The notes under the pieces were generated by a model. The model was not told the origin of the DNA. It made no database searches and was given only the letters and a program-made list of their open reading frames with translations. A program made the translations under genes and the position numbers. This document shows positions 53,387-56,741 of a stretch of 64,000 nt of DNA, in pieces. Positions within the stretch are counted from its first letter, which is position 1; each line of letters opens with the position of its first letter. This DNA is from Gammaproteobacteria bacterium (GTDB lineage Bacteria > Pseudomonadota > Gammaproteobacteria > GCA-001735895), in assembly GCA_026989015.1 (NCBI GenBank), contig JALSKD010000088.1, positions 1 to 64,000 of the forward strand, read 5' to 3'.

Positions 53387-54385
53387 ATGACCGACCGCAT
53401 CGAGCCCGAGATCAAGGGCGAACCCGAAACGCCGAAAACCGGCAAGCCCGATTATGAAGCCATCGTGCAGCGGCTGGCCTTTGCCGCCATCAACGAACAA
53501 CGGCGTGCCAGGCGCTGGCGCATCTTCTTCTTTTTCCTGACCTTTCTCTACCTGACGCCGCTGGCCCTGCTGCTGCTGGATGCGTCGGGCATCAAGGTCA
53601 TCGAGCGCGAAATCAAGTCGCCGGGCAAACACACGGCTCTGGTGCGCATGGAAGGCATCATCGCCAGCGAAGAGGCGGCCAGCGCCGACAACATCATCTC
53701 CAGTCTGCAGGATGCCTTCGAAGACGACGATACGGTAGGCGTGATTCTCGAGATCAATTCACCGGGAGGCTCGCCGGTGCAGTCGGCCTATATCTACGAT
53801 GAAATCCAGCGCTTGCGCAAGGAACACGAAGACAAGCCTCTGCATGTGGTGGTCACCGACATGGCGGCCTCGGGCGGTTATTTCGTGGCCTCCGCCGCGG
53901 ACAAGATCTTCGTCAATCGCTCCAGCCTGATCGGCTCCATCGGCGTGCGCATGGACAGCTTTGGTCTGACCGGCCTGATCGACCGCTGGGGCATCGAACG
54001 GCGTCTGTACACCGCGGGCAAGCACAAGGGCATGCTCGACCCCTTTCTGCCGGAAGATCCGGACGAAAAACAGCGCGTGCTGACGATGCTTGAAAAGGTG
54101 CATCAGCATTTCATCGATGCCGTCAAACAGGGTCGAGGTGACCGCCTCAAGAACGATCCGCAGCTGTTCAGCGGCATGATCTGGTCGGGCGAGGAGGGCA
54201 TCGCCCTGGGTCTGGCCGATGAGTACGGCAACCGTGAATCGGTGGCGCGCGATGTCATCGGCGAGGAGGAGATCGTCGATTTCACCAACGAGGAGCTGTT
54301 GCTCGATCGTCTGGCCGCACGCATCGGCAGTGCCTTTGGGCAGAGCCTGCAGACCCGCCTGCTCGACACCCTGCGCCTGCGTTGA
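53387..54385 (+). CDS. sppA: S49 family signal peptide peptidase (SppA-like)
   Basis: ILEINSPGGSPVQSA, MAASGGYFVASAADKIFVNRSSLIGSIGV (catalytic Ser), TM anchor. Confidence 0.93.
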   Translation: MTDRIEPEIKGEPETPKTGKPDYEAIVQRLAFAAINEQRRARRWRIFFFFLTFLYLTPLALLLLDASGIKVIEREIKSPGKHTALVRMEGIIASEEAASADNIISSLQDAFEDDDTVGVILEINSPGGSPVQSAYIYDEIQRLRKEHEDKPLHVVVTDMAASGGYFVASAADKIFVNRSSLIGSIGVRMDSFGLTGLIDRWGIERRLYTAGKHKGMLDPFLPEDPDEKQRVLTMLEKVHQHFIDAVKQGRGDRLKNDPQLFSGMIWSGEEGIALGLADEYGNRESVARDVIGEEEIVDFTNEELLLDRLAARIGSAFGQSLQTRLLDTLRLR

Positions 54386-54479
54386 TGCCGTCCGTCGCCG
54401 CGCAGCCCGCGGCGGCGGAAAAACCCGCGGATTCGCCTACACTTGGCTGGGTAATCACTGCCCAGGCCGCGAAACCGTC

Positions 54480-55685
54480 ATGTCCGAAATCTTCATTGCC
54501 CGCCAGCCCATCTTCGATGCCGAGATGCAGGTCTATGCCTATGAGCTGCTGTTCCGCGCCAGCGACGAGGCAGCCGCTGAGGCATCGGTGGCGGACGGTG
54601 ACAGCGCCACCTCCAACGTCATCATCAATACCTTTGTCAACATCGGCCTCGAACGCATCGTTGGCGAATATCGGGCCTTCATCAATCTGACGCGCCTTTT
54701 TCTCTCCAATCCGGATCTGATCATGCTGCCGCCGGATCAGCTGGTGCTCGAAGTCCTGGAGAATGTCGAACCCAGTGAAAGCCTCCTCGACGGCCTGCGA
54801 CACATCCGTGAGCGGGGCTACAGTCTGGCGCTGGACGATTTCGTCTATGACCCACGCTTCGAGCCAATGATCGAACTGGCCGATATCATCAAGATCGATG
54901 TGCTGGATATGGAGCCGGCTGAAATCGAAGCCCTGGTCCGACAACTGAGACGGCCGGGCAAGCGACTGCTGGCCGAAAAGGTCGAGACCTATGAGACCTA
55001 TGAATTTCTCAAGTCCCTCGGTTTCGACTACTACCAGGGCTACTTCTTCGCCCGGCCGACGGTGGTCAGTGGCAAGGCCCTTGGCGCCAGTCAGGTGGCG
55101 GTGCTGGAGCTGGTGGCCAAGGTCAACAACCCTGAAGTGGAAGTTGATGAGCTGGCCGACATCATCCGCGCCGATGTGTCGCTGAGCCACAAGGTGCTCA
55201 AGTTCATCAACTCGCCAGCCAGCGGCCTGCGCAGCGAGGTGGACTCGGTGCATCAGGCGGTCGTGCTGCTGGGATTGGCCACCATCAAGAACTGGGTGAC
55301 CATACTGGCGCTGGCCAACAACAGCAACAAACCCGATGCCCTCAATGCCACCGCGCTGATCCGTGCGCGCAGCTGCGAATTGCTGGCGCGGGCCGGTGAA
55401 CTGCCACGGCCGGAGCGCTTCTTTACCGTTGGCCTGTTTTCCTGTCTTGACGCGATGATGGATCAACCGCTGGAAGAACTGATGGAAGACCTGCCTCTGC
55501 CGCAGGAATCACGGCAGGCGCTGCTGGAGCGCAAAGGCGTGCTGGGCGAGGCGCTGGACTGCACGCTGGCCATGGAACGGGGGGATTTCGGCCTCATCGG
55601 CTTTGGGGAGCTGGGCCTGCCGGAGCTTTCAGACCTGTATCTGGAAGCGATCAACTGGGCCGACGAAATGATGCGGCAGTTCTAG
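54480..55685 (+). CDS. EAL-HDOD two-domain signalling protein (YuxH-like)
   Basis: FIARQPIFDAEMQVYAYELLFR; LALDDF; IKIDVL; GFDYYQGYFFARP; C-terminal HDOD; start at MSEIF. Confidence 0.9.
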   Translation: MSEIFIARQPIFDAEMQVYAYELLFRASDEAAAEASVADGDSATSNVIINTFVNIGLERIVGEYRAFINLTRLFLSNPDLIMLPPDQLVLEVLENVEPSESLLDGLRHIRERGYSLALDDFVYDPRFEPMIELADIIKIDVLDMEPAEIEALVRQLRRPGKRLLAEKVETYETYEFLKSLGFDYYQGYFFARPTVVSGKALGASQVAVLELVAKVNNPEVEVDELADIIRADVSLSHKVLKFINSPASGLRSEVDSVHQAVVLLGLATIKNWVTILALANNSNKPDALNATALIRARSCELLARAGELPRPERFFTVGLFSCLDAMMDQPLEELMEDLPLPQESRQALLERKGVLGEALDCTLAMERGDFGLIGFGELGLPELSDLYLEAINWADEMMRQF

Positions 55686-55688
55686 GTG

Positions 55689-56017
55689 TTAACCCGGCAA
55701 GTACCTGCATCGTGTTCAGCCCGCTCGCGCTTGTTCGCGGCAAGGCATCGGTGCGCCGCTGCAGTCATTCTGCAGCAAGTGCCGATAACGCCGTCCGCGG
55801 GCAAGCGCGTGCGGGCCTCACTCTTTTGTTTCAACAGGTTAGGGGCTTCAAGAATGAGCCAGCTCGGCGTTGTCCGCAGGGATGCGGGCAAGGGGCGAGA
55901 GCAGGATGTGTTGAGCTTTGCGGCGCTTGCCAAGGGAATGACCCTTGCCTGCGCACCGAGCCTTGATCCGGCCCATTCTTGAAGCCCTGAATACGACGTA
56001 GGTACTTGCCGGGTTAA
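55689..56017. mobile_element. MITE-like non-coding element with terminal inverted repeats
   Basis: 18-bp perfect TIR TTAACCCGGCAAGTACCT (55689-55706 / 56000-56017), extending to 31 bp with 3 mismatches; internal 17/18-bp inverted repeat 55843-55860 / 55970-55987; hairpins at 55758-55776 and 55931-55947; no transposase. Confidence 0.75.
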
Positions 56018-56026
56018 TACTCTGGA

Positions 56027-56611
56027 TCAGACGACTGCGACCCCGGCCGCCTCGAGCATCGCAGTCAGCCGAATCAGCGGCAGACCGATCAACGCGCTCG
56101 GGTCGTCGCCGCGCAGGTAGCGGAACAATACCACCCCGTAGCCCTCCGACTTGAAGCTTCCGGCACAGTTCCAGGGCTGTTCCACTTCGAGATAATGGCG
56201 CAGGCGATCATCGTCCAGCTGACGGAAACCGACCCGGAAATCCACACAATCCACGGCTTCGAAACCGTCGGACAATCGCATCACGCACAGGCCGGTGTGG
56301 AACAGCACCTCCTTGCCCTGGGCCTCACGCAACTGCTGCAGTGCCCGCTCGGGGGTGCCCGGTTTGCCGAGAATGCGTCCGTCGAGCAACGCGCACTGAT
56401 CGGAGCCGATGACCAGCGCGTCGGGGTGACTCATGGCGATGGCGCGTGCCTTTTCGCGGGCCAGACGGCGTACATAGTCCTCCGCCCGTTCCCCGCGAAG
56501 AGGACGCTCGTCGATGTCGGGCGAGAGGCTGTCGAAATCGAGCTGCAGGCGCGACAGGAGTTCACGGCGAAAGGGTGAGCTGGAGGCAAGGATCAGAGCG
56601 CTGGAGGTCAT
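56027..56611 (-). CDS. maf: Maf/YceF family nucleotide pyrophosphatase
   Basis: LILASSSPFRRELLSRL...DERPLRGERAEDYVRRLAREKA...VIGSDQ. Confidence 0.93.
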   Translation of the reverse strand: MTSSALILASSSPFRRELLSRLQLDFDSLSPDIDERPLRGERAEDYVRRLAREKARAIAMSHPDALVIGSDQCALLDGRILGKPGTPERALQQLREAQGKEVLFHTGLCVMRLSDGFEAVDCVDFRVGFRQLDDDRLRHYLEVEQPWNCAGSFKSEGYGVVLFRYLRGDDPSALIGLPLIRLTAMLEAAGVAVV

Positions 56612-56741
56612 GGGAATTGGACTTGGAGCCGTCAAAACGCCATTATATCAGCAAATTCTTATGAATCAGTGCCCGGCGAGGGGAAAACAGCGGGCACAAG
56701 GATGGACAGAAGGTGCAGGGAACAGTTAAAATCGCGCGTTT

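Follow-up and report, generated by a model that had tools for sequence, protein, structure and literature searches.

The element between the EAL-HDOD gene and maf

The window analysed here, a stretch of 64,000 nucleotides from a gammaproteobacterial contig, contains an EAL-HDOD gene and, convergent to it, maf, both of which agree with Pfam. Between them lies a non-coding element, which starts 3 nt past the EAL-HDOD stop codon (ending at 55685) and is followed at 9 nt by the end of the maf ORF (Table 1). A coding origin was rejected upon inspection, the small overlapping ORFs looking like frame accidents of palindromic sequence. A first-pass annotation made from the sequence alone had reported this position together with an 18-bp perfect terminal inverted repeat (TIR) with an imperfect extension, a nested inverted repeat and two compact hairpins, and all of these were recovered. 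Specifically, sequence inspection located the perfect TIR, TTAACCCGGCAAGTACCT, at 55689-55706 with its inverted copy at 56000-56017, and the inverted repeat that includes it spans 34 nt (88%; 55686-55719 / 55987-56020). In a BLAST comparison over the whole genome the TIR matched its own inverted copy with an E value of 3.8e-5, which is beyond chance. The nested repeat lies at 55843-55865 / 55965-55987, and the compact hairpins are GCTGCAG-tcatt-CTGCAGC at ~55758-55776 and CAAGGG-aatga-CCCTTG within 55915-55965; all three are components of two stem-loop arms. The TG that immediately precedes the window copy is probably a decayed TA-type flank.

Table 1. Features of the element and its neighbouring genes (positions in the window; R1, covariance model of the arm core)
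Feature	Position	Strand	Basis
Whole insertion with flanking dinucleotides (TG left, TA right)	55687..56019	.	Boundary in 13-copy alignment
Element TTAA..TTAA, ~330 bp	55689-56017		
Left terminal inverted repeat, TTAACCCGGCAAGTACCTGCATCGTGTTCAG	55689..55719	+	Repeat search, copy alignment
Right terminal inverted repeat, TTAACCCGGCAAGTACCTACGTCGTATTCAG on - strand	55987..56017	-	Repeat search, copy alignment
Arm 1 stem-loop, outer stem CCCGCTCGCGCTTG..TTCGCGG / CCGCGGGCAAGCGCGTGCGGG	55720..55815	+	Predicted fold, sequence
Arm 1 core, 51 nt, CAAGGC...AACGC	55741..55791	+	R1 match 55739-55795, 66.0 bits, E 6.1e-11
Arm 2 stem-loop, outer stem GGGCTTCAAGAATG / CATTCTTGAAGCCC	55843..55987	-	Repeat search, predicted fold
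Arm 2 core, 51 nt, CAAGGC...AAAGC in window copy	55915..55965	-	R1 match 55911-55967 (-), 48.8 bits, E 1.4e-7
48-nt segment present in 331-bp subfamily, missing from 283-bp one	55870..55917	.	Copy alignment
EAL-HDOD gene, maximal ORF	54219..55685	+	Pfam EAL 2.4e-15, HDOD 2.7e-22
maf	56027..56635	-	Pfam Maf 2.3e-49

A BLAST search with positions 55680-56025 against the window's genome (G000; 2.9 Mb in 198 contigs) returned 13 full copies, 12 of them in addition to the window's own, and 4 partial ones. Five of the full copies are ~331 bp long (94-100%), and the other eight are ~283 bp (79-82%, with a gap). Alignment of the 13 copies fixed the ends at TTAA..TTAA (TATTAACCCGGCAAGTATCTACATCGTRTTCAG), with flanks that are unrelated beyond the TA. 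Every intact end carries TTAA, and at 24 of the 26 ends a TA adjoins it on the outside (TATTAACCCGGCA). According to a simple ORF heuristic, all 13 copies are intergenic, often 0-30 bp from a gene end and in several relative orientations, and only ~3 lie between convergent genes; the neighbouring genes vary between copies.

The convergent EAL-HDOD and maf genes were found ~0-60 bp apart and without the element in six relatives (G004, G006, G007, G008, G012 and G014), the orthology of these junctions being assigned at the protein level only. Since the junction is empty in these relatives, the window element is an insertion, and the simplest reading is that it occurred in the window's lineage. 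No nucleotide-level empty site for the window element was present among the junctions compared, and duplication of the TA is thus putative. In genome G010, a 458-aa ORF of unknown function that is unrelated to the element separates the EAL-HDOD gene from maf (L093:111-1487), so this junction tolerates other insertions.

Rather than being single-copy and conserved at one locus with no empty alleles, the element is multicopy and its junction is empty in relatives. It is short and non-coding, carries TIRs, occupies unrelated sites, and has ends that match those of an autonomous element (see below). Together, the multiple copies, the defined ends, the empty junctions and a transposase with matching ends make its assignment as a non-autonomous transposable element of the MITE type, which the first-pass annotation had anticipated, well supported.

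Covariation in the two-armed interior

Two stem-loop arms in inverted orientation make up the interior of the element; both have a 51-nt core in which CAAGGC is followed by stem 1 (7 nt), 5 nt, stem 2 (6 nt), a loop of 5 nt, the complementary strand of stem 2, 4 nt, the complementary strand of stem 1 and AACGC. In nearly all genuine arms the core came to 51 nt, although the first search pattern permitted other lengths. In an alignment of 26 arms from diverse loci, preselected for the motif and for passing a folding filter (A1), all 13 core pairs were changed on both sides, and 93.8% of the cells were paired, as compared with 60.5% upon shuffling and 34-47% in slid controls. A covariance model of the core, R1, gathered 66 arms from 37 sources (A3); here, 92.5% of the cells were paired versus 63.2% upon shuffling, and again each of the 13 pairs was changed on both sides. 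The shuffle tests are inflated by relatedness, whereas the slid controls retain this relatedness and yet score far lower. Pairs of the G-U type were few (37 of 403 paired cells), and the CAAGGC and AAC positions were nearly fixed in the 66-arm set. Furthermore, both unpaired motifs, CAAGGC and AACGC, hold across genera, as does the 51-nt spacing, and the overall geometry is alike in copies of different lineages. Compensatory change thus maintains the pairing of the arms, and the two unpaired motifs hardly vary.

These patterns point to selection on a folded form, which could be either extruded DNA or an RNA hairpin, and most likely the hairpin would bind a protein or stabilise the element. As far as structure is concerned, the earlier proposal of a structured RNA held more strongly than first envisaged, in view of the pervasive compensatory change in the interior, and the folded form may be RNA or DNA.

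Covariation in palindromes can also stem from intrastrand template switching, and the main rival explanation is that it is functionless here. Template switching, or gene conversion between hairpin strands during replication, would keep the arms perfect, and the element would be an ordinary MITE whose interior has no meaning. Indeed, long and almost perfect palindromes form the outer stems and TIRs and provide a substrate for arm-to-arm correction, and the scarcity of G-U pairs fits a process at the DNA level. However, such a process alone would not keep unpaired motifs, and mismatched loops would tend to vanish, whereas the CAAGGC and AACGC motifs, their spacing and the geometry of the arms persist as described above. 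Pure palindrome maintenance leaves the fixed sequence and spacing of the mismatched loops unexplained, and we regard it as possible but unlikely.

It is quite improbable that the arms act as RNA, that is, that they are transcribed from neighbouring genes and form hairpins which stabilise or regulate the 3′ ends of host mRNAs, at this locus those of the EAL-HDOD gene and maf. The strong fold predicted for the window copy (-204 kcal/mol), the covariation, and the location of many copies, including the window's, within a few bases of gene ends are in agreement with this idea. On the other hand, sequence searches revealed no promoter and no terminator in the element, and Rfam returned nothing at the gathering score, with only sub-threshold plant miRNA models and an unrelated tRNA. 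Moreover, the neighbours differ from copy to copy and the presence of the element varies, so any effects on genes would be incidental.

Ends of the element and a candidate IS630 helper

A transposase with matching TIRs was found in the relative G021, an Olavius Gamma 3-like genome, which contains a complete 1,104-bp IS630-family element (L156, 947-2050) with the ends TATTAACCCGGCAAT and a 347-aa ORF matching DDE_3 (1.7e-38) and HTH domains. This element and the MITE both have TATTAACCCGGCAA ends of 14 bp. Like members of the IS630 family (Tc1/mariner superfamily, e.g. ISY100), the MITE has TA-flanked ends, and it shares its TIR ends with an element encoding a DDE_3-type transposase; unlike them, it lacks a transposase gene, and the interior of the MITE is neither related to the IS630 gene nor IS-derived. 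The match between the MITE and IS ends comprises 12-14 bp and a short second block, ACATC, while the rest of the TIR differs.

A DDE_3 family search of the window's genome gave zero matches because its IS copies are broken by contig edges. A protein search nevertheless detected the last 32 residues of the G021 transposase, with 78% identity, at two contig ends (C22:1-96 and C184:40019-40114; L351 and L354), and the candidate helper is known in this genome from these two C-terminal fragments of 96 bp coding sequence only. In both, the stop codon is followed by ..TTTATTGCCGGGTTAATA and adjoined by the IS end TATTAACCCGGCAATAAAGAACATC, and the outer flanks differ. The IS end in this genome, TTAACCCGGCAATAAAGAACATC, and the MITE end, TTAACCCGGCAAGTATCTACATC, have TTAACCCGGCAA and ACATC in common. 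Contig breaks inside an IS630 element are the usual assembly behaviour at a repeated IS, and IS copies are accordingly collapsed or missing in this assembly.

The IS630-family element ISY100 inserts at TA, which it duplicates (PMC2170065). Judging from the flanks and from the IS630 membership of the likely helper, a TA target is the best answer for the window element, so that of the TTAA or TA duplication proposed initially, TA is favoured and TTAA is not. That the IS630 match is a coincidence and the TIRs are those of a different enzyme, such as an IS1380/piggyBac-like transposase targeting TTAA, is very unlikely: TTAA does stand at every intact end and some of the solo palindromes described below lack an outer TA, but a complete IS630 element shares the 14-bp ends, the same IS-end arrangement recurs at two places in the window's genome, and TA flanks the TTAA at nearly all ends (24/26). 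Two other candidates were discarded. An IS5-type helper for the window element was rejected, as its genome has one DDE_Tnp_1 match and the IS5-type loci examined showed no matching TIR pair; G021, by comparison, has as many as 133 matches to PF01609 (DDE_Tnp_1). Likewise, a divergent IS630 of G006 (35% identity) was set aside as support, since TTAACCCGG is present at one end only. Lastly, a bidirectional intrinsic terminator exapted at the convergent junction, as the first-pass annotation had suggested, is exceedingly unlikely, for despite the convergent position with gaps of 3 and 9 nt and the stable hairpins, the GC-rich stem followed by a T run that characterises such terminators is absent from both strands of the element, six relatives lack the element at the same junction, and only ~3/13 copies are convergent.

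We therefore favour, as very probable, a non-autonomous IS630 (Tc1/mariner-type) element that is mobilised in trans, inserts at TA and has a two-armed interior selected for its structure; that it is a real MITE, most likely driven in trans by an IS630 transposase, appears highly probable from the sequence comparisons. The transposase of a resident IS630-family IS would recognise the ~31-bp inverted ends in trans, and the element would be excised and then inserted at TA, usually just outside genes, the window copy having presumably landed between the stop codons of the EAL-HDOD gene and maf. Its interior is a two-armed structured module common to many proteobacterial MITEs with differing TIRs, and not a deleted transposase gene, and the folded arms would be kept by selection, probably via protein binding or stabilisation of the element.

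Distribution of the core and relation to known elements

Of the 41 genomes of the family, 21 contain the TIR of the window element, and G021 has 69 such ends. In a scan of named genomes, the matches listed for this type of element included MAGs labelled Sedimenticola, Chromatiales, Thiohalobacter and Thiotrichales as well as the Olavius algarvensis Gamma 3 endosymbiont. R1 matched 65 of the 229 gammaproteobacterial genomes sampled (56 of 196 genera), many of them with at least 24 scored candidates, and 58 of 299 genomes in a phylum-wide sample, where many belong to one family of another class. The elements around R1 matches are typically 263-273 bp long (~284 bp for the TTAACCC type) with TIRs of 33-35 nt, and core-bearing elements overall measure ~265-330 bp and vary in their terminal repeats. 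Most of these TIRs end in TTCAG or TCAG, and they differ between lineages (TAGTRCTCYWTCAAC.., CTAGTACAKCRACCA.., TTACTAAGACAA.., CTAGTGTCCTGTC.., CTAGGGAAACTC.. and TAGTGTAGTGCG..). Neither helpers for the TIR types CTAGGGAAACTC.. and CTAGTGTCCTGTC.. nor two sibling elements had a match among plasmids.

On an Azotobacter plasmid, the core was detected by BLAST (1e-6) in an element with the ends CTAGGGTCTGTTGACGTTTTG (L164, 1838-2106). A second plasmid of this strain carries an IS5-family IS (L198, a copy that also contains an IS4-family gene), one end of which is identical to these ends over 22 nt, and an Aeromonas IS5-family IS (L197, DDE_Tnp_1 7e-23) has ends that differ from them at few positions. 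Ends from at least two transposase families thus accompany one and the same core, the link to IS5 being made by this single case. Conceivably, though this is doubtful, the two-arm module could be a mobility or persistence factor that is bound by a widespread protein and has been joined, across the Proteobacteria, to the termini of unrelated transposases, including those of the IS630 and IS5 families, such that MITEs would switch helpers and keep the core.

In G021, many of the ends that seem to stand alone belong to solo palindromes of 33 bp, TTAACCCGGCGACAATATATGTCGCCGGGTTAA, usually flanked by TA (L116-L135, e.g. L123:1495-1531; also L137, L142, L147 and L150). Some show compensatory changes and some have no outer TA. 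Such a palindrome may be a minimal TIR-TIR element or a REP-like derivative; against plasmids it gave a chance-level match only.

Bacterial MITEs such as the Correia elements, RUP and similar repeats are 100-400 bp long, non-coding, intergenic and strongly folding, with TIRs and TA, and the window element resembles them in each of these respects. The usual view of bacterial MITEs is that they are decayed IS elements and that their interiors are meaningless. In the present elements, the structure of the interior is conserved over dozens of genera and the ends vary; this suggests that the structure does something and that such elements can swap helper transposases. As a kind, the MITE is ordinary, but its interior is the mark of a widespread family that appears to be undescribed: among open-licence papers, we found no family with a covarying two-arm core common to elements with different TIRs, while single member families may be described. 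The core model allows easy annotation of this family in Proteobacteria and offers a concrete target for functional tests.

The closest parallels differ in detail. Coxiella QMITE1 and QMITE2 are likewise structured gammaproteobacterial MITEs, for which the authors found no orthologues, and the short QMITE2 derivatives that resemble REPs (PMC5896051) are paralleled by our solo palindromes; judged by the descriptions, the 7-9 bp direct repeats of QMITE2 and the IHF site of QMITE1 set them apart. The Pseudomonas fluorescens R0, R2 and R200 repeats are MITE-like and intergenic, with inverted repeats in R0 and R2 identical to those of resident IS elements (PMC2718517), but they are not described as a cross-genus family, R200 (320 bp) being compared by description. 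With REP elements and REPINs, the 33-bp solo form shares the character of a short high-copy palindrome, whereas TA/TTAA feet and IS630-type ends are found here, REPs being characterised by a GTAG-type foot and a RAYT transposase. The transposase that shares the ends of the element is of the DDE_3 type, and in the 13-copy alignment the GTAG-type foot is absent from the element's ends, which are TATTAACCCGG.

Two variants of the arm arrangement were also observed. A one-armed element of ~163 bp with CTAGTACATCAACC ends is present in G115 (L316:1445-1612), so two arms are not obligatory. In addition, a second, sequence-conserved arm type, CAAGGCGCGAGGAGAGAAGTTTGGTGACTCCAAATGAACGACGATTAACGC with close variants, was found at L038 (G016), L090:260-310, L164 ~1892-1945 and L346, and in the Azotobacter and L346 elements it accompanies a standard arm.
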